Assembly: GCF_003352165.1 (NCBI RefSeq)
Contig: NZ_CP029176.1
Coordinates: 434,001 to 498,000, forward strand
Length of the DNA stretch: 64,000 nt
Source: Acidibrevibacterium fodinaquatile
GTDB taxonomy: Bacteria; Pseudomonadota; Alphaproteobacteria; Acetobacterales; Acetobacteraceae
Direction: 5' to 3'
The translations under genes and the position numbers were made by a program. Of the stretch, positions 20,639 through 40,861 are shown piece by piece. The notes beneath the pieces are model-generated. The model saw only the letters and a program-made list of their open reading frames with translations, made no database searches and was not told the origin of the DNA. Position 1 is the stretch's first letter. The number at the start of each line of letters is the position of its first letter.

Positions 20639-20645
20639 GCGCTTG

Positions 20646-20666: not shown

Positions 20667-20704
20667 CCATATGGGAAGCCTTGTCGAAGCCGTCGAGGGG
20701 ACCC

Positions 20705-23144: not shown

Positions 23145-23468
23145 ATGGCCAACATCGGTTCCTTCAAGAAGTCCGGCAGCGAGTTCCAGGGCGAGATCGT
23201 CACCCTGAGCGTCCAGACCAAGAACGTCCGCATCGTCCCCGAGACCAACCGCGCCAACGACAACGCCCCCAGCCATCGGATCTATGTCGGCCGGGCCGAG
23301 ATCGGGGCCGCCTGGTCGAAGCGCTCCAACGAAGGCCGCGACTATCTCTCGGTCAAGCTGGACGATCCGAGCTTCAACGCGCCGATCTACGCCAACCTTT
23401 TCGACGACGAGGACGGCGACGGCTACACCCTGATCTGGTCCCGCGGCCGCAAGGCCAACGGCGACTAA
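23145..23468 (+). CDS. DUF736 family protein
   Basis: 107 aa, full-length DUF736: MANIGSFKKSGSEFQGEIVTLSVQTKNVRIVPE, SHRIYVGRAEIGAAWSKRS, GRDYLSVKLDDPSFNAPIYANLFDDEDGDGYTLIWSR. Small beta-rich cytosolic protein found in many ICEs and rhizobial plasmids; role not established. AAGGAGA lies 8 nt upstream of ATG 23145. Its leader shares a block with the DUF2493 gene, so the two are probably controlled together. Confidence 0.88.
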   Translation: MANIGSFKKSGSEFQGEIVTLSVQTKNVRIVPETNRANDNAPSHRIYVGRAEIGAAWSKRSNEGRDYLSVKLDDPSFNAPIYANLFDDEDGDGYTLIWSRGRKANGD

Positions 23469-23527
23469 GCCGGACCAGCGAGCCCCGCCCGGAACGACCG
23501 GGCGGGGCTATTTTTCTGCCACGATAT

Positions 23528-23785
23528 CTATGACGGCGGCGAACCTTCAGTTGCGCCACTGTCGCCGGCAGCGGCGAAGTCTTCGTGGATGAGGTCAACA
23601 GGCTTTACTCCGAGCGCCTGCGCCGTATGCCATAGCGTCAGGAGCGTGACGTTCTGCTGGCCGCGTTCCATACTGCTGACATACGCCCGGTCCACGCCCA
23701 TTCGTTCAGCGACGGCCTCTTGGCTGAGGCCGGCTTGCGTGCGAAATCGGCGAAGATTGTCTCCGAACACCTGTCGAATATCCAT
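23528..23785 (-). CDS. XRE family HTH regulator
   Basis: About 85 aa, essentially one Cro/C1 helix-turn-helix: FGDNLRRFRTQAGLSQEAVAERMGVDRAYVSSMERGQQNVTLLTLWHTAQALGVKPVDLI. Start placed at ATG 23785 (MDIRQVFGDNL), the family norm; an ATG at 23800 adds five residues. A 33-bp palindromic site lies just upstream, so it probably represses itself. Such regulators often control ICE maintenance genes. Confidence 0.85.
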   Translation of the reverse strand: MDIRQVFGDNLRRFRTQAGLSQEAVAERMGVDRAYVSSMERGQQNVTLLTLWHTAQALGVKPVDLIHEDFAAAGDSGATEGSPPS

Positions 23786-23804
23786 CCACAGGATGGACAC
23801 CCAT

Positions 23805-23837
23805 CGCGTATTTTGGCGCTACGCACTATAATACGCG
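23805..23837. promoter_or_regulatory. Palindromic operator upstream of XRE gene
   Basis: CGCGTATT (23805-23812) and AATACGCG (23830-23837), perfect 8-nt arms separated by 17 nt, ending 20 nt from the XRE start. A minus-strand TATTATAGTG-like -10 lies within it. The likely binder is the XRE protein itself. Confidence 0.6.
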
Positions 23838-24059
23838 GAGCGCTACCGACCGGCTTGGCGGTCACGTCCGTCAACATGGTGGAAATTCGGGTGTAGCTGA
23901 GGTGGCCACGGATCAGGCGGCCACGGTGGAAATCTGGGCAGGCACGACGTCGAGCAGCGGCGGGATCAGTTCCGCCATCGCCTCGGTTTGCATGTAGCGG
24001 TGCTGCAGCTGCCACTCGTCGTTGGCCTCCAGCAGCACGGCGCCGATCAGCCGGATGAT

Positions 24060-26087
24060 GGCTCCTCCCACAATGTTGCAAGTTTTCAGTGGAGCGCCTT
24101 GTTGGAGCGCGGTTATTTGCAGGCGCAGTATGGCGACGGGTTTCAGAGTGGCCTGACGGGACAGCGCCAGCGCGCGCCCGAGCGGGCGCGGGAGGGCGCT
24201 CATGGCCCGGCGCAAGGGCGCTGCGGAATTGCAGGTGCGGGCCGCCTTCGAGGCGACGCGAACTGCACCGCAGTGCCTGATCGCCGCGTACGAGCGCCTG
24301 GTCCCGATCAGGTGTCGCCTCACCGGACCGAAGACGCAGAGCGAGACCTTACCCCAGGCCACGGCGGCGGTGGTGTCACCGCAACGCAGGAGAGCTGAAC
24401 GTGGGTAGAATCATGGCTGCTTTTTACGCCCGCGTGTCGAGCGAAGGTCAGGCTCGCGGCAATACGATTGCGAGCCAGGTCGCAGCTCTGCATGAGCGAG
24501 CGGCGGCCGATGACGCGGCCGTTGGCCCGGAACACGCCTATGTCGACGAAGGCCGCAGCGGGGCGACCCTTGCGCGTCCGGCGCTGGAGCGACTGCGAGA
24601 TGCCGTGGCCGGGGGCGAGATCGATCGGGTTTACGTGCATGCGCCTGACCGGCTGGCGCGGCGGTATGCCTACCAGGTGTTGCTGGTCGATGAGTTCCGC
24701 CGGGGCGGCGTCGAGGTGGTGTTCCTGAATCGACCCATCGGCGGCTCGGCCGAGGATGACCTGCTGCTGCAGGTGCAGGGCGTGATCGCCGAATACGAGC
24801 GTGCTCGCATTCTCGAGCGGAACCGGCGCGGCCGCCGCCATGCCGCTCGCTCAGGCGCGGTCAGCGCCATGTGTGCGGCTCCCTTTGGCTACCGTTACGT
24901 CAGCCGACATTTCGGCGGTGGCACTGCGCAATTCGAGGTGGTGGAGGATGAGGCACGCGTGGTGCGCCAGCTCTTCACCTGGGTAGGCATCGAACGGATC
25001 AGCCTGCGCGAGGCTTGCCGTCGTCTGCAGAGCATGGGCTGCGCCACCCGCACCGGCTTGACGCAGTGGGACACGACCACGATCTGCGGCATGCTGCGCA
25101 ATCCGGCCTACCAGGGAACCGCCATGTTTGGCCGCACGCGCTCGACCGCATCGGCGCAGGTTCGTCTGCGTCCCATTCGCGGCCATCCTCTTCCGCCACG
25201 CCAGGCCTCCAGCTCGCACACGGCAGTGCCCCGCGAAGAATGGATCGCCATTCCGGTACCAGCTCTCGTGGACACCGACTTGTTCGACACGGTGCAGGCT
25301 CAAGTGGACGAGAACCGCCGACGCAAGCGCGATGGACGGCGCCGACCGGGGTGGCTGCTCCAGGGGCTCGTAGTCTGCCGGCAATGCGGCTACGCGTTCT
25401 ACGGCAAGATGGCACGCGGCACGGTCGGTGGCCGCCAGCCAGCCGACTACGGCTACTATCGCTGCACCGGCACGGATGCGTACAAGTTCGGCGGCCAGGC
25501 GCTTTGCGGCAATCGTTCGGTGCGCAGCGACAAGCTTGAGCAGGCGGTGTGGCGACAGGTGGAAATGGTGCTGGACGACCCGCAGCGTGTGGCCATCGAA
25601 CACGAGCGGCGCGCCGCGGAGGCGCGGGATGGCAAGGCCCACGAGAACGTGGACGCGATCGACCGGCAGATCGCCCGCATGCAGCGCGGTATCGACCGGC
25701 TGATCGACAGCTATACGGAGCAGATCATCGAAGAGGATGAGTTCAAGCCGCGCATCGCCGGGCTCAAGCAGCGCGTGGCCCGGATACAGGCAGAGCGGGA
25801 TGCCGCAGTCGCAACGTATGAAGCCGAGCGCAGCCTGCAGCTGGTGATCGGGCGGCTGAGCGAGTTCGTGGGACGTGTCCGGACTGGTCTGGATCAACTC
25901 GACTGGCACGGTCGGCGCGAGGTGATCCGTGCTCTCGTGCGCCGGATTGAGATCGACCATGATCAGGTCGAGGTGGTGTTCCGCATCCCGGGAGGGCCTT
26001 CCCCTTCAGGCGGCGGCGTCAACATCGAGACGGGCAGGGGCACGACAGGCAACCCGCCAGTTATTTGGCAACATTGTGGGAGGAGCC
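24060..26087 (+). mobile_element. TIR-flanked serine-recombinase element, 2,028 bp
   Basis: Ends are perfect 20-bp inverted repeats: GGCTCCTCCCACAATGTTGC at 24060-24079 and its complement at 26068-26087. AT dinucleotides flank both sides (24058-24059, 26088-26089); removing the element and one AT restores the IS256 reading frame (GS-II). The only sizeable gene is a large-type serine recombinase on the plus strand, with about 340 bp of leader. A 2-bp duplication equals the dinucleotide crossover of serine recombinases. Known families built this way with long TIRs are not familiar to me. Confidence 0.85.
24202..24408 (+). CDS. Possible small ORF upstream of recombinase
   Basis: 68 aa, basic (MARRKGAAELQVRAAFEATR...), ending 8 nt inside the recombinase gene. 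It lies wholly within the element's leader. Nothing in it is recognisable and the Shine-Dalgarno is weak, so it may be a chance frame; kept because the overlap with the recombinase start could allow coupling. Confidence 0.3.
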   Translation: MARRKGAAELQVRAAFEATRTAPQCLIAAYERLVPIRCRLTGPKTQSETLPQATAAVVSPQRRRAERG

Positions 26088-26158
26088 ATCGACCCCTCGT
26101 TGGGGAAGATGCCGACGACATCGGCGCGACGCTTCACCTCCTTGTTCAGCCGTTCTAG
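24401..26158 (+). CDS. Large serine recombinase of the TIR element
   Basis: About 585 aa. The N-terminal resolvase domain has FYARVSSEGQARGNTIASQV (catalytic Ser in RVSS), VYVHAPDRLARR and AEYERARILERNRRGR. A recombinase domain follows (CAAPFGYRYV, ISLREACRRLQSMG, MLRNPAYQGTAMFGRT), then a zinc ribbon (VCRQCGYAFYGKM, with C in ALCGNRSV) and a coiled coil (IDRQIARMQRGIDRLIDSY). GTG 24401 has AGGAGAG 6 nt upstream. There is no stop codon in this frame before the element's right end: the frame runs through the TIR and terminates in the IS256 sequence at 26158, so the C-terminal tail depends on the target site. Confidence 0.9.
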   Translation: MGRIMAAFYARVSSEGQARGNTIASQVAALHERAAADDAAVGPEHAYVDEGRSGATLARPALERLRDAVAGGEIDRVYVHAPDRLARRYAYQVLLVDEFRRGGVEVVFLNRPIGGSAEDDLLLQVQGVIAEYERARILERNRRGRRHAARSGAVSAMCAAPFGYRYVSRHFGGGTAQFEVVEDEARVVRQLFTWVGIERISLREACRRLQSMGCATRTGLTQWDTTTICGMLRNPAYQGTAMFGRTRSTASAQVRLRPIRGHPLPPRQASSSHTAVPREEWIAIPVPALVDTDLFDTVQAQVDENRRRKRDGRRRPGWLLQGLVVCRQCGYAFYGKMARGTVGGRQPADYGYYRCTGTDAYKFGGQALCGNRSVRSDKLEQAVWRQVEMVLDDPQRVAIEHERRAAEARDGKAHENVDAIDRQIARMQRGIDRLIDSYTEQIIEEDEFKPRIAGLKQRVARIQAERDAAVATYEAERSLQLVIGRLSEFVGRVRTGLDQLDWHGRREVIRALVRRIEIDHDQVEVVFRIPGGPSPSGGGVNIETGRGTTGNPPVIWQHCGRSHRPLVGEDADDIGATLHLLVQPF

Positions 26159-27353
26159 CGGGTTGGTGGAGTGTATTTTGCTTCGGTGTTGGGCCGGGAA
26201 GTCCAAGTGCGCCAAAACGTCGGCCTCGCTGTCGTCGATGAATGCACCCAGCTTCGGCCACTTCGCGCGCAGCTGGTCGGCAACGTGACGCAACGTCTGG
26301 CTGGCGGCCGGGCGATCGGGCTGAATGAACGCCTGGCGCAGCGCCGCCGAAGCCATGTTCTGCTGGCCCTTTGGCACGTAGGACAGGGCGTTGCGCATCC
26401 AATGCACGCGGCAGCGTTGCCAGGACGCACCCATCACCCGCCGGATCGCCGCCTTCAGCCCCTCATGGGCGTCCGAGATGACCAGCTTGACGCCTCGCAA
26501 ACCGCGGCGAACCAGGCTTTTCAGGAAGCCGCTCCAAAAGGTCTCGGCTTCGCTCGGACCGATGTGCAATCCGACGATCTCGCGCTTGCCATCAGTGTTG
26601 GCGGCCACGGCGATTATCGCCGCGACTGAGACGATCCGGCCGCCCTCGCGCTGCTTGAGATAGGTCGCATCCAGCCAGAGATAGGGCCAGTCGCCGGCAA
26701 GGGGGCGGTCGAGGAAGGCGTTCACCCGGTCGTCGATGTCCTTGCACAGCTTGCTCACCGTGCTCTTGCTGATCCCCGACAGCCCCATCGCCTGCACCAG
26801 GTCGTCAACTCGCCGGGTGGACACGCCGCCGATCCAGGCTTCCTGGATCACCGCCACCAGCGCCTTCTCGGTCGTCTTTCTGGGCTCGAGGAAGGCAGGG
26901 AAGTAGCTGCCCTGCCGCAGCTTCGGGATGCGCAGCTGCAGAGCGCCCAGCCGGGTATCCCGCGTCCGGTCCCGGTAGCCATTGCGGTAGGTCGTGCGGT
27001 CGCCGGTTCGCTCGTGCCGTCCCGCGCCGATCACACCCTCCACGTCCGTCTCCATGAGCAGTTGCACCACGGCCTCGGCCACGCTGCGGAGAAAGTCACC
27101 ATCACCAGCCTTCGCCAGCAGCTCGGCCAGCGGTAGTCTGTCCTCGGTCATCGGGTCCTCGTCGGTTTGGGATGAAGCCTCGCAACTCCACCTTAGCCAG
27201 CCGAGCCGATGACCACCTCCGCCTACACCGCCTCTGTCAGCAAATTCCCACCACGTCCTCGGACGCTACCGGCTTGGCCACCGACGCGTTCCAGGATCGG
27301 CGTCCCAGCTTGGGGAATGTCGGTCCTCCATCATGGGGAAACACGAGAACATC

Positions 27354-27623
27354 ATGCCCTCTCAGCCTGCTCCTCCCATCGCCGAGACCGCGCCAACCAG
27401 TGCCCAGGTGACGGACTACGACCGGGCGCATCTGCCAACCTATCTCCGGTTGCTCGATGCTACGTCCGAGGGAGCCCCCTGGGAGGAGGTTGCGCGCATC
27501 GTGCTTGACCTCGACCCGGCGCTGGAACCCGATCGGGCGCGCCGCGCCCACGAGACGCACCTGGCGCGCGCCCGCTGGCTTACCGAACACGGCTATCGCG
27601 ACCTGCTTCGCTCCCCGCGCTGA
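27354..27623 (+). CDS. QseM-like DUF2285-type antiactivator (putative)
   Basis: 89 aa, compact helical: AQVTDYDRAHLPTYLRLLDATSEGAPWEEVARIVLDLDPALEPDRARRAHETHLARARWLTEHGYRDLL. The size, helical layout and position directly before the fseA-like gene match QseM of ICEMlSymR7A, a small DUF2285-superfamily protein that binds and blocks TraR and FseA. The identification is by context and pattern, not alignment. ATG 27354 is used; an ATG at 27333 adds seven residues. The IS256 element ends only about 100 bp upstream and may have displaced its promoter, which could loosen control of ICE excision. Confidence 0.6.
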   Translation: MPSQPAPPIAETAPTSAQVTDYDRAHLPTYLRLLDATSEGAPWEEVARIVLDLDPALEPDRARRAHETHLARARWLTEHGYRDLLRSPR

Positions 27624-27819: not shown

Positions 27820-28576
27820 ATGTCGAAGGAGGATTGGCGGTCGCGAGCCGCCTATCAATACGCGGCCACCATGGAGCCCGCCGGCCTCGCCTGGGAGTTC
27901 CTGCGCCGCAACCCTGACTATCGGGTCGCGTACGACACCGCCCCAGCCCAAGCCGATCACGGGACCGATGGCCCCGCCCGGCGCTGGGGGTTACGATTTC
28001 CTGGCAGACCCAAACCGACGCGCCGATGACGTCCCCGTCTTCTGGCGTCCCGACGAACTGGCGTCGGTCGTCGTCCTGACAGCGGCGCCCGCCGGAACGG
28101 AAATACCCTCGATCTCGCTCGCCGACTTGCCGGGCGAATTCATGCGGCGTGACGCCGAGGATGGCGCGCATCTGCTGATCAGAGACCACACGATCAGCCA
28201 CCAGCTCTGGCTGATCGATCCGCCGAGCGGTGCGACGCCGGTGGTGGCGCTCATCGCGCTCGACCTCACCGCGCCGCAGCGGGCTGACGCGACCTTGCGC
28301 TTTTGGCGGTACGTCGCGCATGGACGGCCTCGAACACCGCCAAGCCCGCCTCATCGCGTCGACCGCTTGGTCTCCGCCCTGCGCGCGCTCGACGCTCGGC
28401 TGGCCGGCGCCAGCTACCGTGCCATCGCCGAAGCTCTTTTCGACCCAAGCCGTCTCACCTCCGAACCATGGAAGACATCGTCCCTCCGCGACACGGTCAT
28501 CCGCCTGACGCGCACCGGCTTCGCCATGATGCGCGGCGGCTATTGCAACCTTCTCGGTCCACGCCGGCCGGATTGA
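27820..28576 (+). CDS. FseA-like excision activator, two frames (+1 shift)
   Basis: Frame 1 starts at ATG 27820 (AAGGAGA at 27806-27812) with a DUF6499 domain: DWRSRAAYQYAATMEPAGLAWEFLRRNPDYRVAY, then RRWGLRF, and stops at TGA 28027. The second domain, DUF2285, lies in the +1 frame: FLADPNRRADDVPVFWRPDE, then LRFWRYVAHG, RVDRLVSALRALDARLAGASYRAIAEALF, MMRGGYCNLL, stop at 28576. A shift at CGA-UUU-C (27994-28000), with tRNA-Phe moving from UUU to UUC, joins RWGLRF to LADP and gives 251 aa. ICEMlSymR7A makes FseA from two frames by programmed +1 frameshifting; this is the same layout. FseA activates rdfS transcription. A simple indel mutation is the alternative. Confidence 0.8.
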
Positions 28577-28732
28577 TTGATCGGGCAACGCCCCAGATCG
28601 CCGTTGCCATGCGGGGTGGCGAATTTGGCGCCCCCCATTTTCACCATCCCCCTACGCGCGTCTGCTTCGCCACCGTGATCGCCAACGGCCGCCGATACCC
28701 GGCAGCCATCCTCGGCATCACGGAGGTCGCCC

Positions 28733-29017
28733 ATGTCCGCCGCACTCTCCCAACTCCCGCCACGCTATCTGCGCACGCCAGAAGCCGCGAGGTTCCTCGG
28801 CCTCTCCGGGCGCACACTCGAGAAACACCGCATCTATGGCACCGGCCCGCGCTATTCCAAGCTCGGAGGCCGCGTCGTTTACCGGCTCGAAGACCTTCAG
28901 GCCTGGGTCGAACTCGGCGCCAGGGCATCGACCTCCGATCCGGGGATTGGCCAGGTGCTTCCCGCCAAGCGCCATCCTTCCATCACGCCGGCCCAGGCCG
29001 CCCAAGCGCGTCGCTGA
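28733..29017 (+). CDS. RdfS-like excisionase (HTH_17/AlpA type)
   Basis: 94 aa with a winged-helix MerR/AlpA-type DNA-binding domain: RYLRTPEAARFLGLSGRTLEKHRIYGTGPRYSKLGGRVVYRLEDLQAWVELGARAST. In ICEMlSym-type elements the gene behind fseA is rdfS, the recombination directionality factor that turns the integrase towards excision. Same order here: qseM-like, fseA-like, this gene, repA. The basic tail may bind DNA. No integrase is in the window to pair with it. Confidence 0.78.
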   Translation: MSAALSQLPPRYLRTPEAARFLGLSGRTLEKHRIYGTGPRYSKLGGRVVYRLEDLQAWVELGARASTSDPGIGQVLPAKRHPSITPAQAAQARR

Positions 29018-29790
29018 GCCCCTCCCGTCATGTCCGTGCGCCATCGCACCCGCTCCGAACGCGAGCAGCTCGAACTCTTCCGGGCTCTGCCCGGCGACCT
29101 CGCACCGAGGGACGCGCAGGATCTCATGGCCTATCCGTTCTTCAGCCTCGCCAAGACCCATCGCACGACGCCGATCGATTTCCGGATGAACGAGATCGCC
29201 ATCCGCGTCGAGGCGGTGCCCGAGCACGGCATGGCGACCATCTGGGATGCCGACGTGCTGATCTGGGCCGCGAGCCAGATCGTCGAAGCGCGCGATGCCG
29301 GCCTGCGCACCTCGCGCCTGATGGCGGCGACACCGCGCGAAATTCTGACCTTCACCGGCCGCGGCACAGGCGCACGCGATTATCACCGTCTGAAGGCGGC
29401 GCTCGATCGCCTGCAATCGACGACGGTCGCGACGTCCCTGCGCCAGATAAACGAACGGCGCATGCACCGCTTCTCCTGGATCAACGAATGGACCGAGCGC
29501 GCCGATGCGCACGGCAATGCCGATGGCATCGATCTCATCATGCCGGACTGGTTCTATCGCGCGGTCCTTGACGACGCGCTTGTGCTCACCATCGACCCTG
29601 CATATTTCAGTCTGACCGGCGGCCTGGAACGCTGGCTCTATCGTCTGGTCCGCAAGCACGCCGGCCACCAAAGGGCCGGCTGGCGGTTCGATTTCCGACA
29701 TCTGCACGTCAAATCGGCGAGCCTTTCGCCGTTCAAACGCTTCGCATTCGAGCTGCGCGACATTGCACGCAGGCAACCGCTACCGGGCTA

Positions 29791-30928
29791 TTGCTTTGAA
29801 CCAAACAGAGGATTCACAACGGGGCTGATTTGTGAGATTCTGTGTGCATGGCACAGACCGTCATCCCCATCGTCAACTCCGCGGACCGCGAGCGTTTGGC
29901 CGCCATTGTGGAGGATCGCAACCGTTCTCAGAAGCATGTTCAGCGTGCCAGGATCATTCTGCTATCGGCGGAGCGTCTGACCGTGCTGGAGGTGGCGGCG
30001 CGCAGTGGAGCAAGCCGGCCGTCGGTATGGCGCTGGCAGCGGCGCTTTGCCGAGCAAGGTGTCGATGGATTGCTGCGCGACAAGACACGCAAGCCGGGCA
30101 AGGCGCCGTTGTCGCCGGCGACCATCGCCCGCGTGCTGGCGCTGCCCTGCGGGGAGGCACCGAAAGCGGCGACCCACTGGACCGGCCGTATGGTGGCCAG
30201 CGCCGTCGGCATCAGCCTGAGCGCGGTGCAGCGCATCTGGCGGGCCCATCGCCTGCAGCCACACCGCATCAGGACCTTCAAGAAATCCAACGACCCGGCT
30301 TTCGCCGCCAAGGTCGAGGATATCGTTGGGCTCTACATGAACCCGCCTGCGCACGCCGTCGTCGTCTCGATCGACGAGAAAAGCCAGATCCAGGCGCTCG
30401 ACCGCACCCAGCCCGGCCTGCCGATCAAGCCTGGCCGCTGCGGCACCATGACCCATGATTACAAGCGCCACGGCACCACCACCCTGTTCGCCGCTCTGAA
30501 TGTCCTCGACGGCACCGTCGTCGGCCGCTGCATGCCCCGGCACACCCATCAGGAATTCGTCAGGTTCCTCAACGCCGTCGAGCGCGCCGTCCCCGCCGGC
30601 AAGATCATCCACGCCATCGCCGACAACTACGCCACCCACAAACATCCTAAAGTCAGGGAGTGGCTGGCCGATCATCCGCGCTGGGTCTTCCATTTCACGC
30701 CAACCTCCGCGTCCTGGATCAACGCCGTCGAAAACTTCTTCTCTGTCATCACCCGACGGCGCATCCGGCGCGGCGTGTTCACCTCCGTCGCCGATCTCCA
30801 ACGCGCCATCCGCAGCTACATCCGCGAGCACAACCGCAACCCCAGGCCATTCGTCTGGACCAAGCCGGCTGACGACATCCTCGCCAAGCTCAGCCGGCTG
30901 CCTGTAGCGTCCGATTGAGTCAGAGCAC
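29791..30928 (+). mobile_element. IS630-family element in repA
   Basis: 1,138 bp flanked by TA on both sides (29789-29790, 30929-30930), the standard IS630 target duplication. Imperfect ends TTGCTTTGAACCAAACAG and GTGCTCTGACTCAATCGG (complement of the right end) share 12 of 18 positions. One intact transposase gene. Confidence 0.88.
29848..30918 (+). CDS. IS630 family transposase
   Basis: 356 aa, intact. N-terminal helix-turn-helix (LTVLEVAARSGASRPSVWRWQRRFAEQG) and a DDE catalytic core: VVSIDEKSQIQALDR, IHAIADNYATHKHPKVREWL, FTPTSASWINAVENFFSVITRRRI. The ATG at 29848 is preferred; a GTG two codons earlier is possible. The gene is in one frame and should be active. It reads in the same direction as repA. 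Confidence 0.92.
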   Translation: MAQTVIPIVNSADRERLAAIVEDRNRSQKHVQRARIILLSAERLTVLEVAARSGASRPSVWRWQRRFAEQGVDGLLRDKTRKPGKAPLSPATIARVLALPCGEAPKAATHWTGRMVASAVGISLSAVQRIWRAHRLQPHRIRTFKKSNDPAFAAKVEDIVGLYMNPPAHAVVVSIDEKSQIQALDRTQPGLPIKPGRCGTMTHDYKRHGTTTLFAALNVLDGTVVGRCMPRHTHQEFVRFLNAVERAVPAGKIIHAIADNYATHKHPKVREWLADHPRWVFHFTPTSASWINAVENFFSVITRRRIRRGVFTSVADLQRAIRSYIREHNRNPRPFVWTKPADDILAKLSRLPVASD

Positions 30929-31267: not shown

Positions 31268-32815
31268 TCACGGACCAGGAGCAGGATCATGAATAGATCC
31301 TGCTCTTCGGCGACGGCCGTGTTTCGGTCCCCACAATCGACGGCGGCGCCCAGGCTTCGCGCGGCGATGCTTGGTCAGCAGCTTCGAGGCAGCGTCCAGG
31401 TCAAGGTCGACGCCGAACATCTCTCTGGCCCGAACGGCGATCGCTTGCCGGTTCTGGCGAAGACGATCGCCAGCAATCCACTGGCCCATGGCTTCGGCCT
31501 GAACACCGGTGAGAGCGGGCTTGCCCGTCGGACGTTCCAATGCGGCCTCCAGGCCTCCGGCTGCGCCCCGATGGAGCCAGCGGTAAACGCTGCGTGGTTC
31601 GACGCCAACGAGCGTAGCAACGGCTTCGACCAGAGCGCCGTCCTTCAGTTCCGCCAAGGCCCTGAGCCGCTGACGCCGATGCTTGTAGCGATCCTGCATG
31701 GATTGTTCACGCAGGTGCGAGGCGCTGAGGCTATCCAGCCACGGTTTCCACGCGCGCTGGCCCTCCGGCCGTTTGGTGCTCGCCGCTGCGAGTATGACCC
31801 GCAGCCGGTCTTTCACGATGGCCTCGAAGTCCGTGAAGGGAGCGAGCAGCCCTTCGAGGCGCGGCGTCAGCAGTGTAGCGATGGTTCTCGGCAGGCGCTG
31901 GCCGAGATCGCCCAGCAACCAGGCCAGAAACAACAACCCGCCGTAGTTCTCCTTCCACGGGATGCGCTGCCACTCACGCTCGGTCATTCCGAGATCGCGG
32001 CAGATGCCGGCGAACAGACGATCACGTCGTCTCGGCGCGAGATAGTCACGTTGCTTCTTCGCGCGACGCGTCCAGAGCATCGCGAGGAGCACGTCGGCGA
32101 GCGCCATGGTCGTTGGCCAGTTGAGCGCGCCGATGCCGGGGAGGATAGTCGTTCCGCTTCGCTTGCCTGCGGCGAGAGCCGCTTGCAAATCGAGAACGGC
32201 GGGATGCGCCGGAAGACTCTCCGCGTGAGTCAGCGGAGCTGCGCAGCGCCTGCAAAGAAAATCGATCGGCTCCAAACCGGTCAGGCCGCGCAACCGCAGC
32301 GCCTTGCCGCAGAAGGGGCACCTTCCGCTGAGCGCCGTCTCGTGACGAGGGCACGCGCCCGCCCAGCCGAGCGTCCAGATCAACTGGAGATGCGGGCGCG
32401 GCGCTTCGGCGAGGCACTCTGTACAGACGTCGATCCGGCCGAGACGAACCTTACCATTCTCACGAACGGTCCACCGGTTCGCGGCAAATCGATCCGCTTC
32501 CTCATCGTTCGGCGTGGCGGCCCAATCGCACAACGTCATCTCGACGAGACGCGTCGCATCGACGCCAGTCCGGCTTTCGATCCGCTTCAACGCCGGGGGA
32601 TCGGGGCGACGCCACCATTCACGGTCCCGCCGAACATCGACGCCGAATGCATCGCGGCAAAGAACGCGCGGCGTCATGCCGAGAACGGTGGAAAGCGCCG
32701 CCACCCAGGAGATCAGAGCCTCGCCGTCGACCGGAGCAACATGCCTCGGCAAGCCGGCGCGACCGTGAAAAGGCGCCGGCCACGGCGCCACCTCGAACAA
32801 ATCAGACCGCAACAC
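31268..32815 (-). CDS. tniQ: TniQ family target-selection protein
   Basis: 515 aa. N-terminal TniQ domain: PWPAPFHGRAGLPRHVAPVDGEALISWVAALS, then two zinc-ribbon-like clusters CTECLAEAPRPHLQLIWTLGWAGACPRHETAL and CPFCGKAL / CRRCAAPL. The C-terminus has a helix-turn-helix (LVEAVATLVGVEPRSVYRWLHRGA), fitting a TnsD-like DNA-binding target selector rather than the short TniQ of CRISPR-associated transposons. The start overlaps tniB by 14 nt. It should recruit TniB to the target site. The 3' end overlaps a perfect hairpin. Confidence 0.85.
   Translation of the reverse strand: MLRSDLFEVAPWPAPFHGRAGLPRHVAPVDGEALISWVAALSTVLGMTPRVLCRDAFGVDVRRDREWWRRPDPPALKRIESRTGVDATRLVEMTLCDWAATPNDEEADRFAANRWTVRENGKVRLGRIDVCTECLAEAPRPHLQLIWTLGWAGACPRHETALSGRCPFCGKALRLRGLTGLEPIDFLCRRCAAPLTHAESLPAHPAVLDLQAALAAGKRSGTTILPGIGALNWPTTMALADVLLAMLWTRRAKKQRDYLAPRRRDRLFAGICRDLGMTEREWQRIPWKENYGGLLFLAWLLGDLGQRLPRTIATLLTPRLEGLLAPFTDFEAIVKDRLRVILAAASTKRPEGQRAWKPWLDSLSASHLREQSMQDRYKHRRQRLRALAELKDGALVEAVATLVGVEPRSVYRWLHRGAAGGLEAALERPTGKPALTGVQAEAMGQWIAGDRLRQNRQAIAVRAREMFGVDLDLDAASKLLTKHRRAKPGRRRRLWGPKHGRRRRAGSIHDPAPGP
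31279..31305. repeat. Perfect hairpin over the tniQ 3' end
   Basis: GAGCAGGATC (31279-31288), loop ATGAATA, GATCCTGCTC (31296-31305). It codes for the last TniQ residues and lies 8 nt from its stop. It could terminate tniQ transcription or belong to the transposon end. Confidence 0.6.
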
Positions 32816-33704
32816 GACGACGCTCGGAGGGACGGATGAAGCCTGTATCCTCGATCACGCGCGCAGAGATCGTCTCCGCGCCCGTATCCACCGCCCGAAC
32901 CGCGGCACGGATGACGACCGCGATCATCTCGCCGAGCACGCCTTCGGATGCCGAGAGGATGCGGGCGCCAAGCGCGGTATCGGCGAGATGCGACGGCTTG
33001 CGCAGCGGGAGCACGGCCTCGAGCGTGCTCAGCAGCCGGCGATACTCGTCGTCATCGCTCCACAGCGGTAGAGGGTGCGGCTCGAAGCGGTTGACGAGTT
33101 GGTCGTCGCTGCGGATCGCGCGCAGCGCCTCGGCCGTGCCGACGCCGACCAGCGGGATCTGGAGCTCGTTGCCGAGCCAGCGCAGCAGATTGAGCAACCG
33201 GCGCTGCTGCATCGCCGAACCCGACAGCACGTTGTGCAACTCGTCGATCACCAGCATCCGCGTTCCCGTCGAGCGCATGACGCAGACCACCGTGTCCTGC
33301 TTGGTCGCGATTCGATCGCGCGGGCTGAACGGCATTCCCAGCGCATCGAGAATCGCCCCGAAGAACCGGCCTTCGTCCGGGCCAGGCGGCATCTGCACCT
33401 TCACGACGGGAAAAAGCGCAATGCCGTCACCGCTCTCGCCGGCGGTGGTCCCCGGGTGCGCCCGCCGGAACTTCTCGACGATCATCGTCTTGCCGTTGTT
33501 TGTCGGACCGACCAGCAACAGGTTCGGCATCCGCGTCCGCTTCGGGAAGCTCAGCAGGTCCTCCAGCGCCGCCAGGACGGCTTCCGCCCGTGCATAGCCG
33601 ATCCAACGATCTGTGCGGATGCGTCGTATGCGCGACGGGGCGTCTTCGTCAGCGAAGCGCCGGACCGAGGGATGCAGGTGCGCATAGTCGTCGCTCATTC
33701 CCAT
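32802..33704 (-). CDS. tniB: TniB/TnsC-like AAA+ ATPase
   Basis: 300 aa AAA+ ATPase of the TniB family: Walker A LLVGPTNNGKTMIV, Walker B RMLVIDELHNVL, sensor GNELQIPLVGVGT, and the C-terminal lid LSTLEAVLPLRKPS. TniB-type ATPases polymerise on target DNA and pass the site chosen by TniQ to the TniA transposase. Overlaps tniA by 10 nt and tniQ by 14 nt, so the four genes form one translationally coupled unit. Confidence 0.88.
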   Translation of the reverse strand: MGMSDDYAHLHPSVRRFADEDAPSRIRRIRTDRWIGYARAEAVLAALEDLLSFPKRTRMPNLLLVGPTNNGKTMIVEKFRRAHPGTTAGESGDGIALFPVVKVQMPPGPDEGRFFGAILDALGMPFSPRDRIATKQDTVVCVMRSTGTRMLVIDELHNVLSGSAMQQRRLLNLLRWLGNELQIPLVGVGTAEALRAIRSDDQLVNRFEPHPLPLWSDDDEYRRLLSTLEAVLPLRKPSHLADTALGARILSASEGVLGEMIAVVIRAAVRAVDTGAETISARVIEDTGFIRPSERRRVAV

Positions 33705-35365
33705 TCCTCGACCGGGAACATCCGTTCGTGCGGCGCCAGGCCCTCGTTGATCTGCCGAAACCGATCGGCTTCATCATGCTCGATCGGAAGCAGATCAGAG
33801 CGGCCTTCGACAACGGCGTGCGGACGCCGCTCGCGCTGGCGCCGCGCCGTTTTGCTGGCGCGAACGGCGCCGTCAGCGATCATCCGCATGGCCTCGATGG
33901 TGCGGAAGATAGCTTCCTCGTCGACCAGCGAGCGGCCGTTCTCGTGCAGCCGCTTCAGCGCCAGACGGTGCTCCCACAGGCTGATCGGCGGGCGCCGCAG
34001 ATCGCGGTAGCTGAGGTCGTAATACACTCCGTCGGGACCGAGCAGATAGATCCGGCTGAGGTCACGCGGGTCGTAGCGGACGATCATCGGCTCTGGATGG
34101 CCGATCCAGGTGCTCAGCACATCCGCCCAATAAGCGATCGAGTGCAGCGCCACGCCATCCCGGCGAATCCTGCGACGCGCAATCGGCAGGAAATCGATCA
34201 GGAAGCGGCGTGGATCGGCCACAGCAGTCGGCTCGCCGCGCCCCAACGTCGTGTCGTCCCCGGAAACGCCTCGCTTCCAGGCAGCCAACGGCGTGATGCC
34301 GAGGCTGCGATGCAGATCACGATGATAGACGCCTGCGATCGCGTGACCGAGCCAGCGCTCCACCTCGTCGAGCGTCATCGCAGCCGTCTTCTCCGGGTCC
34401 AAATCGCCTTTTTCCCGCACGTCGGAGAAGGTGGTTCCCGGCAGCAGATGGACTTTGCCCATCATCGTGCCGATCAGTCGCTCGATGTGGCCGCCATAGT
34501 GAGGCGTGCGCACAGGCCGGTAGTCGATGGCGATCCCATACTGTTCGCAGCCGCGCTTCAGCGCCTCGGACCGGAACTCCTTGGCGTTGTCCAGATGCAG
34601 GCGTTCGGGGATGCCACGCACCGGCCAATCTGCGTCGATGCGTCGCTCGGCCAGCCAGCTCTCCTTGGAAAGCGCAGCATGGCTCAGGCACAACGCGACC
34701 GACGTTGCGGATGGCGGCGCCAACGACAAATGGAAACCGGCGACGCAACGCGTGCAGACGTCGATCGCCAGCGTCAACCAGGGCCGCTGGATCGGCGCCC
34801 GCGTCTCGCTGTCGACCACGATCACGTCGACCAGCGTATGGTCGATCTGGATCAGCGACAGAGGCCAGTGGGCTTCCAGCGATCCGACCGCCGGGAAATA
34901 GCGCTCGCGTGCCGCCTTGCGGCCCTCGCGCTTCGCGACGACCTCGCGAGCGGGACGCGCCTGCACCCGGGCCGTGATCGCCTTGCGGCTCGGAACCCGC
35001 AGACCTTCCGCAACGCAGCGGCGTTGGACTTCCTCGACCAGATGAACGATCCGAGGTCGCTGGCGCGTCAGATAGACCGAGTCGATGACCTCACGGATCA
35101 CCGCGTCCACCGCTTCATCGAGCAAAGAGATGCCGCGTTCGGGACCACGACGACGTGGCAGCAGGCCGGTAAGGCGTGCATCGGTGAGATAGCGCCGCAG
35201 CAGGGCATACGCGTGGGTTGGCCCACAACCGAGCTCCTCGGCGGCCGCCACCACGTCGCTTCGCGTACGTACCGGATTCTCCGCCAGCCGCCGGATCACC
35301 GGGAGACAGCGCCGCGCTTCATCCCATGCCGCGGCGTCAATCATCGAGAGATCGGGCGTGCTCAT
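33695..35365 (-). CDS. tniA: TniA/TnsB-like DDE transposase
   Basis: 556 aa Mu/TnsB-type integrase. N-terminal helical DNA-binding region, then an RNase H core with Asp in LIQIDHTLVDVIVVD, Asp in ERLHLDNAKEF and Glu in YGGHIERLIGTMMG, followed by the Mu-transposase C-terminal beta barrel (ISLWEHRLALKRLHENG). It cuts and joins the 3' ends of the element. With TnsA present, cut-and-paste is expected instead of cointegrate formation. Size and motifs are intact. Confidence 0.88.
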   Translation of the reverse strand: MSTPDLSMIDAAAWDEARRCLPVIRRLAENPVRTRSDVVAAAEELGCGPTHAYALLRRYLTDARLTGLLPRRRGPERGISLLDEAVDAVIREVIDSVYLTRQRPRIVHLVEEVQRRCVAEGLRVPSRKAITARVQARPAREVVAKREGRKAARERYFPAVGSLEAHWPLSLIQIDHTLVDVIVVDSETRAPIQRPWLTLAIDVCTRCVAGFHLSLAPPSATSVALCLSHAALSKESWLAERRIDADWPVRGIPERLHLDNAKEFRSEALKRGCEQYGIAIDYRPVRTPHYGGHIERLIGTMMGKVHLLPGTTFSDVREKGDLDPEKTAAMTLDEVERWLGHAIAGVYHRDLHRSLGITPLAAWKRGVSGDDTTLGRGEPTAVADPRRFLIDFLPIARRRIRRDGVALHSIAYWADVLSTWIGHPEPMIVRYDPRDLSRIYLLGPDGVYYDLSYRDLRRPPISLWEHRLALKRLHENGRSLVDEEAIFRTIEAMRMIADGAVRASKTARRQRERRPHAVVEGRSDLLPIEHDEADRFRQINEGLAPHERMFPVEEWE

Positions 35366-35985
35366 GGCGCTGTCACCCGCGTCTCGGCCGTGATCGGCAC
35401 GGTGAGATCGACGGCGAGCGCTCCGCGCGCGATCAGCCGCCAGAGCAAGGCGAGGCCGGCCTCGCGCGCGGCCGGTAAATCATCCACCAGATCGCCGAAA
35501 CTCACGGTATTGGCGCGCGCACGGGCGACGGCTCGTTCCGCCAGCACCGTGTCGATCGGCGCGCTCCTGAGCGGCAGTAGCCGCTTCGCGACGTCGAGCC
35601 GCGGTCCGCGGATGCCGCGCTCGGTCGCGATCCTGAAGCGGGCGCCATTGCTATGCGCCCAATGCCGCGCAGCAGCAAAAGCCGGCCGGAAGCCACGCCA
35701 GCCCTCGCGCAAGTCCACACGGTATTTGATCTCGACGATCTCGCAGCGGCCGTCGCTCCAGTCGACGCGAAAGTCCGGCGTATATCGCCGTTGGCGGCCC
35801 TCATGCTCGAACCGGATCGTCACCGGCTGGGCTGTCACCACGGCGCCGGCATCCATGAAGCTCACGAGCGTTACGAAGTCACGCTCCAGCGCGCTTTCAT
35901 GCTCCACCGTCCCAGTTGCCAGTGTCTGGAACCCGGTCACATGCGACCGATGGCTGAGAGGAATTTGCCGCAAATCGCTCTCCAT
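35362..35985 (-). CDS. tnsA: TnsA-like endonuclease
   Basis: 207 aa from ATG 35985. PD-(D/E)xK nuclease of the TnsA type: Glu in VEHESALERDFVTLV, Asp in YTPDFRVDW and the EIK motif in IVEIKYRVDL; C-terminal helical domain with ERAVARARANTVSFGDLVDDL. TnsA makes the 5' strand cuts that let Tn7-like elements excise cleanly. A longer frame starts at 36081, but homology begins at MESDLRQIPLSHRSH. Overlaps tniA by 4 nt. Confidence 0.85.
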   Translation of the reverse strand: MESDLRQIPLSHRSHVTGFQTLATGTVEHESALERDFVTLVSFMDAGAVVTAQPVTIRFEHEGRQRRYTPDFRVDWSDGRCEIVEIKYRVDLREGWRGFRPAFAAARHWAHSNGARFRIATERGIRGPRLDVAKRLLPLRSAPIDTVLAERAVARARANTVSFGDLVDDLPAAREAGLALLWRLIARGALAVDLTVPITAETRVTAP

Positions 35986-36151
35986 TTGCGGGACGATTCG
36001 GTACGTAAACCTAGCACATTTTGGGGTCAGTTCACAAACATGGAACCGTGTCAATGCACGCAAACCATTATGCGGATTCATATTCGCCTACTCGTCGATT
36101 CACGAAACCTCGAACACCAACAGATCGGTGGAAAACCGACAGGAGCGCCCG

Positions 36152-36790
36152 ATGATCGTGGCGCTCCTCAACCAGAAGGGCGGTGTCGGCAAGACGACGC
36201 TCGCCCTGCATCTCGCCGGCGAATGGGCCCGGAAAGGGAAAAGAGTCACCCTGATCGACGCCGATCCGCAAGGCTCGGCACTCGACTGGTCGGAGCAGCG
36301 GGCAAGGGAAGGGCTGCCGAGGCTGTTCGGCGTCATCGGCCTGGCGCGCGACACCCTGCACCGCGAAGCCCCCGAGTTGGCCCGTGATGCCGATCACGTC
36401 GTGATCGACGGGCCGCCGCGCGTCGCCGGCCTGATGCGCTCGGCGCTGCTCGCTGCCGACGTCGTGCTGGTCCCCGCCCAGCCATCGCCGTTCGATGGCT
36501 GGGCATCGGGCGAGATGCTGAAGCTGATCGCGGAGGCGCGCATCTTCCGGCCGCAGATCATCGCCCGCTTCGTGCTGAACCGCTGCGCCGCCCGCACCAT
36601 CATCGCCCGCGAGACCGCCGAGGCGCTCGCCGAGCACGATCCGCCGGTGCTCGCGGCCAGGATCGGCCAGCGTGTCGTTTTCGCCGACGCCGCGCAGTCC
36701 GGCCGTCTCGTCTTCGACATCGACGAGACCAGTCCGGCCGCGCGCGAGATCACCGCTCTTGCCGACGAAATCGGGAGCCTCGTTCGATGA
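36152..36790 (+). CDS. parA: ParA family partition ATPase
   Basis: 212 aa. Deviant Walker A LLNQKGGVGKTTLALHLAG, Walker A' LIDADPQGSALDW, Walker B-like VVIDGPPR, as in short ParA/MinD-type plasmid partition proteins. No N-terminal DNA-binding domain. AGGAG lies 7 nt before ATG 36152. It begins the transfer-gene run (parA to relaxase), where successive genes overlap by 4 nt. Expected to help segregate the excised ICE. Confidence 0.92.
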   Translation: MIVALLNQKGGVGKTTLALHLAGEWARKGKRVTLIDADPQGSALDWSEQRAREGLPRLFGVIGLARDTLHREAPELARDADHVVIDGPPRVAGLMRSALLAADVVLVPAQPSPFDGWASGEMLKLIAEARIFRPQIIARFVLNRCAARTIIARETAEALAEHDPPVLAARIGQRVVFADAAQSGRLVFDIDETSPAAREITALADEIGSLVR

Positions 36791-37041
36791 CCGCGCGCGC
36801 ACCCAGGCGCGGCTTCGCCTCCCGTCCCGGCGACGCCGACAGCTGGGTGAAGGCGCCCGACGTGACCGCAGCGCGCGACCCGGATGCGCAATCCTATGCG
36901 GCCCGACTGACGATCGATGTCACGCCCGAGCTGCGAGGCCGGATCAAGGTCAGCGCTTTCCGGCGCGGCGTGACGGTCGCCGACATGCTGCGCGCCCTGC
37001 TGCTGCGCGAGTTCCCCGAGGACGGGGGAGGCGCGGCATGA
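36787..37041 (+). CDS. Small RHH-like protein after parA
   Basis: 84 aa. The C-terminal half, YAARLTIDVTPELRGRIKVSAFRRGVTVADMLRALLLREF, has the strand-helix-helix pattern of ribbon-helix-helix DNA-binding proteins; the N-terminus is basic and disordered. Position after parA (ATGA overlap) fits a centromere-binding partner of ParA, but that is inference. It overlaps the next gene by 4 nt. Confidence 0.7.
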   Translation: MTARAPRRGFASRPGDADSWVKAPDVTAARDPDAQSYAARLTIDVTPELRGRIKVSAFRRGVTVADMLRALLLREFPEDGGGAA

Positions 37042-37514
37042 GCCCGTCGCCTGACGCGTTCACCCATGTCGAACTGACCTGGATCGAAAAGCGCATCGAG
37101 CACTGGATCCGGTTCGGCCACGACGTCAGCGAGAAGATTCTCGATCGCCGCCGCCGCGTCCTCAGCTTCGCGCCCGACAGCGTCATCGCCTATATCCGCT
37201 GGGCCTCGAACGACTTCGGCACCGTCGTCTCACGCATCGACATTCTGCGCGCCGTCCATCCCGGCGAGGCGTTCTCGACCGTGCCCTTCGTGCGGCCCGG
37301 CGGCGAGATTCTCTTGCGCCTCTCCGGCTGGCCGAAGGTCGAGCGCGTGTTGCGGGCGATCGACGCCGTCGAAGCGCTCGGCATCGATCCAACCGACGCC
37401 GCTCCCGATCATTGGCGGCATGTCCACAACCGCCTGATCGCCGGCTACGAGCCACGGCCGTACGCGCGCGATCAACATTCCGCATGGCTCAAGCGTCGGA
37501 GGATCGCGTCATGA
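37038..37514 (+). CDS. DUF2840 family protein
   Basis: 158 aa, DUF2840: THVELTWIEKRIEHWIRFGHDVSEKILDRRRRVLSFAPDSVIAYIRWASNDFGTVVSRIDILRA, then GEILLRLSGWPKVERVLRAIDAVEALGIDP. Soluble, arginine-rich. DUF2840 genes lie between parA and traF in this ICE class and on related plasmids; function not established. Overlaps both neighbours by 4 nt, so the order is a true operon. Confidence 0.85.
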   Translation: MSPSPDAFTHVELTWIEKRIEHWIRFGHDVSEKILDRRRRVLSFAPDSVIAYIRWASNDFGTVVSRIDILRAVHPGEAFSTVPFVRPGGEILLRLSGWPKVERVLRAIDAVEALGIDPTDAAPDHWRHVHNRLIAGYEPRPYARDQHSAWLKRRRIAS

Positions 37515-38023
37515 CGCGTTTCGGAGCAGTTATGGTGACCTATTTCGCGACGATGGCGATCGGCGTTTCCGCCTTCGTTCATCCGGCGCCGAAGCTGATC
37601 TGGAACGCCAGCGCCAGCGTGCCGATCGGGCTGTATCGCGTGCGACCGGTCGGCGACCTGCACGTCACCGAGTTGGTCGTGGTGCGCCCGCCGCCGCCGC
37701 TGGCGAACTTCCTCGACGAGCGTGGCTATCTGCCCAAGAGCGTGCCCCTCCTGAAGCGAATCCAGGCACTCCCCGGACAAACCGTCTGCCGTGCGGGCCG
37801 CACCATCACCGTCGATGCCACCGTCATGGGCAAGGCGCTCGAACGCGATCGCCGAGGTCGCCCCCTTCCTGTCTGGCAGGGCTGCCGTCTCATCGCCGAG
37901 GGCCAAGTCTTCCTCATGAATCGGCAGTCCGAGGACTCCCTCGACGGTCGGTATTTCGGGCCGTTGCCGGCGACAACCATCGTCGGCGAAGCGGCGCCCC
38001 TCTGGACCGACGAGGAGCAATGA
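37511..38023 (+). CDS. traF: TraF-type S26 signal peptidase
   Basis: 170 aa. One N-terminal membrane helix (VMVTYFATMAIGVSAFV), then the S26 catalytic Ser in WNASASVPIGLYRV and Lys in LLKRIQALPGQTVC, and the box NRQSEDSLDGRYFGPL. TraF proteases of the IncP type mature the TrbC pilin and circularise it. It acts at the periplasmic face of the inner membrane. Overlaps DUF2840 upstream and the lytic transglycosylase downstream by 4 nt each. Confidence 0.88.
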   Translation: MTRFGAVMVTYFATMAIGVSAFVHPAPKLIWNASASVPIGLYRVRPVGDLHVTELVVVRPPPPLANFLDERGYLPKSVPLLKRIQALPGQTVCRAGRTITVDATVMGKALERDRRGRPLPVWQGCRLIAEGQVFLMNRQSEDSLDGRYFGPLPATTIVGEAAPLWTDEEQ

Positions 38024-38865
38024 CCGTGTCTCAGTCCTGCCCGCACACAGCCCTTCAGCGCCAACCATCCCGCCCGGTCTCTTCCTCCTTCCCGGCCATA
38101 CCGCCCGTCGTCGAGCGCCGCTCGATGACCAGGCGTGCGCGTGGATGGCGGCGGCTCCTTTGCGGCTCGATCGCGATCACGCTGTTGGTCGGCGGTGGCG
38201 TTGCCTGCGCCGAACCGATCGCCGCGAAGCCTCCGAGCGTCGCCGCGACGACCGATCACTTTGCGGTCTTTGTGGCCGAAGCCTCGCAGCGCTTCGGCAT
38301 TCCGGCGTCCTGGATACGCGCCGTGATGCGGGTCGAAAGCCTCGGCGACGTGCGGGCTCTGTCGCCCAAAGGCGCCATGGGTTTGATGCAGATCATGCCG
38401 GCGACATGGGCCGGCCTGCGTCTTCGCTATGGCCTCGGCACTGACCCATACAATGCGCACGACAACATCTTCGCCGGCGCGGCGTATCTGCGGGAGCTGC
38501 ATGATCGCTACGGTGCGCCTGGTTTCCTTGCAGCCTACAACGCCGGCCCGGCACGCTATGAGGATCATCTGGCGACAGGCCGAACGCTGCCCGCCGAGAC
38601 GCGCGCCTACGTCGCTGTTCTCGCCCCGCTGATCGGCGGAGGTTCGGTCGATGATGCGTTGGTTGTCGCCGTTGTGGCGCGCTCCTGGACGCAAGCGCCG
38701 CTGTTCGCGTCGCATACGGCGAACAGCCCGGCGCGCCCCCAACTATCGTCCGCCCCGCAATCGGAACAGTTGTCGATCAACGAAACAGCGGAGGATTGGA
38801 CCGCGCTCGCCCCGCAATCGGACGGTCTGTTCGTCAGGACGTCGGGGCGGAATCCACGGCCATGA
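38020..38865 (+). CDS. Lytic transglycosylase (VirB1-like)
   Basis: 281 aa. A signal-anchor or signal peptide starts at the internal Met of RRSMTRRARGWRRLLCGSIAITLLVGGGVACAEP. The SLT domain has the catalytic Glu in IRAVMRVESLGDVRALSPKGAMGLMQIMPATWAGL and the AYNAGPARYEDHL motif. It opens peptidoglycan for the conjugation channel. The first ATG (38020) overlaps traF; ATG 38125 would give the signal peptide directly. The C-terminal 70 aa are low-complexity. Confidence 0.88.
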   Translation: MTVSQSCPHTALQRQPSRPVSSSFPAIPPVVERRSMTRRARGWRRLLCGSIAITLLVGGGVACAEPIAAKPPSVAATTDHFAVFVAEASQRFGIPASWIRAVMRVESLGDVRALSPKGAMGLMQIMPATWAGLRLRYGLGTDPYNAHDNIFAGAAYLRELHDRYGAPGFLAAYNAGPARYEDHLATGRTLPAETRAYVAVLAPLIGGGSVDDALVVAVVARSWTQAPLFASHTANSPARPQLSSAPQSEQLSINETAEDWTALAPQSDGLFVRTSGRNPRP

Positions 38866-39112: not shown

Positions 39113-40861
39113 ATGAGCACCAACGACGACGACATCCACGTCCGCCCAGGCCGCATTCGTCACGGCAACCGCGGCGCCAAGCGTCCGCAGACCTTCGTCG
39201 GCGAGGTCATGCGAGCCGCGAAGAGGGCCGGTCATGTGGGCTCCAGCTTCCGCTCAAGCCAGGGTCGCAGCCGCTCGCGATTCGGGCGTGGCCGCCGGGC
39301 GGCGGTCTCGATCCGGCTCCGCTCCAACGCAAGACGCGTCGTGATGAAGGCGCGCGTCGTCCGGCATTACGGCACGCGCTTTCGCTCGGCGCCGCTGCCC
39401 AAGCACATGGCCTATCTGAAGCGCGACGGCGTAACCCGGGACGGCGCCGACGCCCGCATGTTCGACGCCACGTCGGATGCGGCCGATGAACGGGCCTTCG
39501 CCGAGCGGTGCGAGGATGACCGCCATCATTTCCGGTTCATCATCTCGCCGGAAGACGCCGCGGAGCTGGAGAGCCTGCGCGGCTTCACGCGCGAGCTGAT
39601 GGCCGACGTCGAACGCGACCTCGGCACCAAGCTCGACTGGGTGGCGGTCGATCACTGGAACACCGACAACCCGCACGTCCACGTCCTGATCCGCGGCAGG
39701 GCAGACGATGGCCAGGACCTAGTCATCAGCCGCGACTATATCAGCCGAGGCTTTCGCGATCGGGCAGCCGAGCGCGTCACCATCGAACTCGGCCCGCGCA
39801 GCGAGCATGAAATCCGAACTGCCCTGGAAAGGGAAGTCGAGGCCGAACGCTGGACCAGCCTCGACCGCGCCCTACGCGATGTCTCCGATGATGGCGGCGG
39901 TGTCGCTGACTTGCGGCCAGGCGGTGCGGACGATCCGGAGACGCGACGCCTGATGCTCGGCCGCGCCGCGAAGCTCGAACGGCTGGGCCTTGCCGAGCAG
40001 GTTGGCCCGGCCCAATGGACTCTGAAGCCTGGCATTGAGCCTGCCATGCGTGACCTCGGCATCCGCGGCGACATCATCAAGACGATGCATCGGGCGATGA
40101 GCAGGGCAGATCGGGAGCCAGACGTCACTGGCTTCGCGATCCATGGCGACGCGCCCGCCAATCCGGTGCTGGGCCGCCTGGTCGAGCGCGGGCTAGACGA
40201 CGAGCTGAAGGGCACCGCCTACGCCATCGTCGAAGGCGTCGATGGCCACACACATCATCTCCGTTTCTCAGACCTCGAACTGACCGGCGACGCGCGACCC
40301 GGCGCGATCGTCGAGGCGCGGTCCTACGAAGATGCCAATGGCCGCCACCGCCTATCCCTCGCCACGCGATCCGACTTCACGATCGAAGCACAGATCTCGG
40401 CGACCGGCGCGACCTGGATCGACCGCCAGCTACTCGCGAAAGAGCCGGCGCTCAGCGGCGGCGGCTTCGGCGCCGAGGTCCGCGAGGCAATGGATCGGCG
40501 AATCGACCATCTTGCCCGACAGGGCTTAGCGAAGCGGCAGGGCCAGCGCGTCGGGTTCGCGCGGGACCTCCTCAACACGCTGCGCCGGCGCGAACTGGAC
40601 GATGTCGCCACAATGCTCTCGGCGGAGACGGGACTTGCACATCGCCCCTCCGCTGAAGGCGAGCACGTGCCCGGCATCTACCGCCAGCGCATCACCCTCT
40701 CCTCCGGCCGGTTCGCCATGATCGATGATGGGATGGGGTTCCAGCTCGTGCCTTGGCGGCCGGCGTTGGAGAAGGAACTCGGTCACCAGGTCAGTGGCAT
40801 AGTGACGCCGGGAGGAAACATAGACTGGAGTCTTGGGCGCAAGCGGGGGCTGAATATCTAA
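39113..40861 (+). CDS. RlxS-type relaxase, DUF3363
   Basis: 582 aa. N-terminal relaxase region with a possible catalytic Tyr in VVRHYGTRF, then DRHHFRFIISPEDAAELE and the metal-binding HxH of DWVAVDHWNTDNPHVHVLIRG. The C-terminal half is DUF3363 (LERLGLAEQVGPAQWTLKPG, GRLVERGLDDELKGTAYAIVEGVDG). In ICEMlSymR7A the homologous RlxS nicks oriT and pilots the strand. Slightly shorter than typical (about 630-680 aa) but with an ordinary end (GGNIDWSLGRKRGLNI). The TraG coupling protein and Trb genes that normally follow are absent; a metal island with an IS5 scar starts instead. Confidence 0.9.
   Translation: MSTNDDDIHVRPGRIRHGNRGAKRPQTFVGEVMRAAKRAGHVGSSFRSSQGRSRSRFGRGRRAAVSIRLRSNARRVVMKARVVRHYGTRFRSAPLPKHMAYLKRDGVTRDGADARMFDATSDAADERAFAERCEDDRHHFRFIISPEDAAELESLRGFTRELMADVERDLGTKLDWVAVDHWNTDNPHVHVLIRGRADDGQDLVISRDYISRGFRDRAAERVTIELGPRSEHEIRTALEREVEAERWTSLDRALRDVSDDGGGVADLRPGGADDPETRRLMLGRAAKLERLGLAEQVGPAQWTLKPGIEPAMRDLGIRGDIIKTMHRAMSRADREPDVTGFAIHGDAPANPVLGRLVERGLDDELKGTAYAIVEGVDGHTHHLRFSDLELTGDARPGAIVEARSYEDANGRHRLSLATRSDFTIEAQISATGATWIDRQLLAKEPALSGGGFGAEVREAMDRRIDHLARQGLAKRQGQRVGFARDLLNTLRRRELDDVATMLSAETGLAHRPSAEGEHVPGIYRQRITLSSGRFAMIDDGMGFQLVPWRPALEKELGHQVSGIVTPGGNIDWSLGRKRGLNI

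Follow-up and report, generated by a model that had tools for sequence, protein, structure and literature searches.

The locus considered here raises the question of how an FseA-type activator can be obtained from a gene whose two conserved halves lie in different reading frames, and whether this offset is a functional +1 shift or the trace of a broken gene. We addressed it in a 64,000-nucleotide stretch of the Acidibrevibacterium fodinaquatile chromosome (contig NZ_CP029176.1), hereafter the window, whose relevant features are collected in Table 1. With a probability that we put at about 0.9, the locus is the fseA gene of an integrative/conjugative element, and its FseA activator is made through a +1 slip at UUU-C.

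Table 1. Features of the window around fseA, numbered from the first base of the window.
Feature	Position	Strand	Basis
qseC-like HTH regulator, divergent from qseM in relatives	23588..23785	-	tblastn with qseM neighbours from relatives
Insertion between qseC and qseM: Mutator/IS256-type transposase (26006-27151) and serine recombinase element with 23-bp inverted ends (24056-26089)	23853..27273	.	alignment to L010; Pfam; repeats
qseM-like antiactivator, lone DUF2285	27333..27623	+	Pfam; PDB 7UQT QseM E 1.9e-17
fseA 5' frame (DUF6499 / PF20109, Trans_reg_dom)	27820..28029	+	Pfam E 1e-20
SD-like UGGGGGUU (codons of W-G-L), 6 nt upstream of the slip codon	27985..27992	+	direct read; codon selection, anti-SD pairing
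+1 slip site UUU-C	27997..28000	+	direct read and comparison with relatives
fseA 3' frame (DUF2285 / PF10074 RovC_DNA-bd; DUF7012 middle domain below cut-off)	28001..28576	+	Pfam E 2.2e-29
FseA-box-like inverted repeat GGCGAA-N16-TTCACC, upstream of rdfS	28618..28645	+	arm covariation among relatives
rdfS-like recombination directionality factor (HTH_17)	28733..29017	+	Pfam; PDB 8DGL RdfS E 2.4e-9
repA (RPA), interrupted at about residue 254 by IS630, resumes at about 30913	29030..29791	+	Pfam E 2.3e-86; comparison with paralogue L001
IS630-type transposase (DDE_3) within repA	29842..30918	+	Pfam
Tn7/Tn5053-type transposon genes TniQ, TniB, TniA (Mu-type), TnsA-like	31268..36081	-	between repA and parA-traF-rlxS
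parA, RHH protein, DUF2840, TraF-like S26 peptidase (37511-38023), SLT transglycosylase (38020-38865)	36152..38865	+	
Relaxase (DUF3363, VirD2-like), RlxS-like	39113..40861	+	Pfam E 1.6e-89

Frame 0 of fseA opens at the ATG at 27820, reads CGC TGG GGG TTA CGA TTT CCT (R W G L R F P, then G R) across the junction and, if unshifted, ends at the stop codon 28027-28029. The TTT codon of this frame occupies 27997-27999 and the following C is base 28000. The +1 frame, TTC CTG GCA GAC CCA (F L A D P), remains open until the stop at 28574-28576, and when TTTC is read as a single Phe step the translation comprises 251 amino acids with no stop. A preliminary description, in which a DUF6499 frame ran to RRWGLRF and a DUF2285 frame continued from LADP in +1 with UUU-C as the junction, was thus correct to the base: both halves match their Pfam profiles, and the same site recurs in relatives. 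PF20109 (formerly DUF6499) is matched over 60 of its 60 profile positions, the read-through translation carries the AWEFLRRN motif in this N-terminal domain (LAWEFLRRNPDY), and a sub-threshold DUF7012 match lies between the two Pfam domains. Both fseA and rdfS are intact in the window.

The neighbouring genes also agree with that description, which had placed a QseM-like gene before fseA and an RdfS-like gene after it. The upstream product is a lone DUF2285 without AWEFLRRN upstream, and its closest solved structure is QseM itself; the downstream product is a wHTH/HTH_17 protein matching RdfS over residues 9-60. Downstream of the latter lie repA and, later, genes for parA, DUF2840, a TraF-like S26 peptidase, an SLT transglycosylase and a DUF3363 relaxase. 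The order qseM, DUF6499, DUF2285, HTH, repA is also found on Azospirillum, Indioceanicola and Bradyrhizobium plasmids, on which a divergent HTH regulator precedes qseM where the retrieved stretch extends far enough. The genome itself holds three qseM-fseA modules on one chromosome, within a span of 230 kb (C1:338 kb, 462 kb, 567 kb). A relaxase lies some 6-12 kb from each of them, and every one has the +1 offset with UUU-C. Identity between the 462-kb and 567-kb copies is about 53 %, the third module being more distant.

Twenty-two of the 23 relatives having both halves (from named genome contigs and other assemblies) keep the +1 offset at the identical base, the exception being L016; as the same relation holds in all three paralogous modules, neither sequencing error nor chance indel explains the offset. 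Whole-genome hits from the family, order, class and phylum were then added, giving 142 non-identical loci; clustering at 70 % identity reduced them to 79 representatives, of which 64 are shifted and 15 are continuous. The slip site of the shifted representatives is UUUC in 55, UUUU in 6 and UGUC in 3 (L100 being scored at its UUU one codon later), so that UUU-C, whose conservation among homologues had been proposed for verification, is indeed the prevailing site. UUUA and UUUG occur in none of these 64, though a Phe codon at other places in these genes is most often followed by G, and TTT accounts for only 29 % of their Phe codons. A fourth base that is C or U and never A or G is the pattern predicted by re-pairing of tRNA-Phe(GAA) on UUC or UUU. 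UUU-C is also present in the Mesorhizobium loti NZP2037 plasmid copy.

Substitutions relative to other copies fall mainly at third positions, in frame 0 before the slip and in frame +1 after it; compared with the relative L010, the first, second and third codon positions show 5/4/15 differences before the slip and 37/20/88 after it, each half being counted in its own frame. This pattern indicates that both halves of fseA are under protein-level selection. The unshifted tail ranges from 3 to more than 200 codons across shifted genes, and the end of the short product is therefore not conserved. In one further locus, L115, the second half is offset by one more base, and this gene is likely broken.

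We further gained insight into the codons that precede the slip. In 45/61 shifted genes, GGG encodes the Gly of WGL, the background being 15 % (p 6e-25, with representatives taken as independent; since they are related, this and the other binomial p values on codon and slip-site counts are optimistic), and the codon after it is TTG or TTA in 41/64. Among continuous genes, GGG is found in 6/15 and the Leu codon is mostly CTN; UGGGGGUU is absent from every continuous gene of the tree set. Anti-SD pairing averages -8.8 kcal/mol, compared with -6.15 +/- 0.19 under synonymous randomisation. An independent-pairs test of the SD-like signal against shift status gave averages of 2.9 for and 0.0 against, with 5 supported pairs, too few for significance. 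The WGL codons had earlier been remarked to resemble a ribosome-binding site that might stall translation (PMC10359603). What the present comparison would add is a statistical tie, at the codon level, between the SD-like UGGGGGUUR and shift status, for which the phylogenetically controlled test had too few pairs.

A second class of junctions carries UGU-C (or UGU-U) in place of UUU-Y. It comprises L029-L033 (Aquabacter relatives), L163, L089, L192 and L196, two Azospirillum plasmids being among them; the site of Azospirillum lipoferum is UGU-C. Slippage of Phe-tRNA cannot explain the shift at such sites, and tRNA-Cys would be expected to re-pair poorly on GUC. Except at L089, where AGG replaces the expected GGG and the copy may have decayed, the second frames are long and intact. 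In the Aquabacter group, the codon after UGU is CCC, followed by C or G, and slippage of Pro-tRNA at this CCC is conceivable; in Azospirillum oryzae, UUU-U stands one codon before UGU-Y. Taken together, these observations lead us to a tentative proposal, to which we give slightly less than even odds: the FseA-family signal would consist of two parts under selection, UUU-Y and, 6 nt before it, an SD-like UGGGGGUUR by which the shift is stimulated or paced, whereas Azospirillum and the Aquabacter relatives would shift on UGU-Y by another route.

If an ordinary one-base indel had broken a formerly continuous gene and left a pseudogene, close relatives with a single frame would be expected, and the preliminary description had named such relatives as the observation that would overturn it. 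One was found: in L016, which shares 51 % identity, a single frame runs through the junction, with UUC in place of UUU-C, and the several insertions borne by the element also fit a decaying locus. However, a quick tree, which requires 8 changes between shifted and continuous states, places L016 in a supported clade of seven that includes the window copy and whose remaining six members are shifted; given this nesting and the replacement of UUU-C by UUC, L016 reads as a derived loss and lends no support to an indel in the window copy. The same offset at the same base in 64/79 representative lineages and the three paralogues, together with a codon-position bias that continues past the junction, makes the pseudogene reading very improbable.

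The DUF2285 part might also be a separate protein translated from its own start, which we regard as improbable, if a little less so than the indel. An in-frame ATG of the +1 frame does occur at 27968, 11 codons upstream of the junction, as it does in several close relatives, with an SD-like GGGGG close to it, and annotation pipelines call two genes. Yet the open +1 frame lacks an ATG upstream in 40/65 shifted representatives, and past the junction the first start codon mostly comes 16 to more than 59 codons in, at a variable place, so that separate initiation is no general answer; nor does it give any reason for the fixation of UUU-Y or fit a homology that starts exactly at the junction. Least probable of all is the loss of the extra base by transcriptional slippage rather than at the ribosome. 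The site does have a few T in a row (UUU or UUUU), but the slippage of bacterial RNA polymerase is known on runs longer than 3-4 T and an SD-like signal acts on ribosomes; moreover, the published mechanism for msi172-msi171 is programmed ribosomal frameshifting (PMC10359603).

According to the +1 slip reading, most ribosomes would end in frame 0 and yield a short DUF6499 protein. In a minority, the Phe-tRNA paired with UUU in the P site would re-pair one base on, at UUC, and continue in +1 to give the 251-aa FseA. This protein would bind the inverted repeat upstream of rdfS and switch that gene on, the RdfS-like product would promote excision, and QseM would block FseA by binding the DUF6499 helix. 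The present analysis supports the identities and order of the genes, the kept +1 offset and UUU-Y, selection on both halves, the shift-linked SD-like codons and a covarying FseA box. That slippage occurs at all, and at a low rate, that FseA activates rdfS and that QseM blocks it would hold by analogy with ICEMlSymR7A, where the frameshift circuit has experimental precedent (PMC10359603, PMC5882170, PMC5009743); FseA as a DNA-binding dimer activating rdfS has been published for R7A only (PMC10359603).

The arms of the candidate FseA box contain one mismatch, and their spacing fits inverted hexamers 15-16 bp apart, the published box of ICEMlSymR7A consisting of two inverted hexamers 16 bp apart. 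By itself in the window, this repeat is no better than shuffled sequence, and only comparison across relatives supports the box. There, the arm pairs are TGGCGAA/TTCRCCA, TGCCGAA/TTCGGCA in Bradyrhizobium and TGTCGAA/TTCGACA in others. When the arms were re-paired at random 20,000 times, no set was equally complementary, a value that becomes 0.00015 once identical pairs are collapsed; visual choice of the arms within the aligned region biases this result slightly in their favour, and the count leaves aside the genome's more distant third module.

The surroundings of fseA are less well preserved, and the evidence points to a damaged element as the location of this copy. Bases 23401-23852 and 27274-27418 of the window match adjoining bases of L010 (2000-2453 and 2454-2600), and since these flanks are contiguous there, the 3.4 kb that separates the qseC-like gene from qseM is an insertion. 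This insertion has probably cut qseM off from its own control region or promoter; in R7A, a switch on qseM transcription decides which cells transfer (PMC10359603). The IS630-type element interrupting repA spans 29792-30913 of the window. The insertions may have silenced the fseA circuit. No tyrosine integrase (PF00589) was matched within the window, the nearest being at C1:375222 and 524804. No traI was found near the fseA module; a search of the genome for AHL synthase genes gave a single one, C1:850996, about 390 kb away and outside the window. As judged from these synthase genes, quorum-sensing control of fseA by traI/traR, as in R7A, was not recovered here. The window also contains metal-related genes at 18859-20115, 20201-21355, 41882-43309, 44441-46960 and 49898-54444, which encode cation efflux proteins, a multicopper oxidase, DsbD and a CusA/CusB-type efflux system.

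With FseA (msi172-msi171) of ICEMlSymR7A from Mesorhizobium japonicum R7A, the locus shares DUF6499 and DUF2285 halves split over two frames, with the +1 shift after WGL, and a circuit that includes qseM and rdfS. The gene set resembles rdfS-traF-msi107-rlxS of that element (PMC5882170, PMC11963761), with replication and partition genes included. Unlike in R7A, where fseA follows traI2 in a TraR-driven operon, qseM, fseA and rdfS are here contiguous and followed by repA, and insertions part qseM from qseC and rdfS from traF-rlxS. RovC of Yersinia (PDB 6xz5) is a DUF6499/DUF2285 relative with an AWEFLRRN-type helix, at a weak sequence match, but it is encoded in a single frame and regulates a type VI secretion system. 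In prfB, the bacterial gene for RF2, an SD-like AGGGGGU stands just upstream of a +1 slip codon, as in fseA; that slip codon is CUU before a stop codon, the SD spacing is 3 nt instead of 6, and the shift is autoregulatory. No FseA-like protein was found in phage records.

The suggestion that frameshift control reaches well beyond the rhizobial element holds as regards its spread, but not as a novelty: a 2023 survey had already reported that about 61 % of 4,709 FseA homologues, from alpha-, beta- and gammaproteobacteria, need a +1 shift (PMC10359603). The window gene belongs with those homologues that conserve the +1 frameshifting site, differs from them in no mechanistic respect, and adds a genome to a known mechanism, not a new mechanism. 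The codon-level signal yields a simple, testable prediction about the stimulation of the shift, and the slippage model could be probed with the UGU-Y lineages as naturally occurring variants. Translational braking of ICE excision, a basic point already in the literature, is an old, retained feature and not a rhizobial oddity, found here in a genome with three modules.
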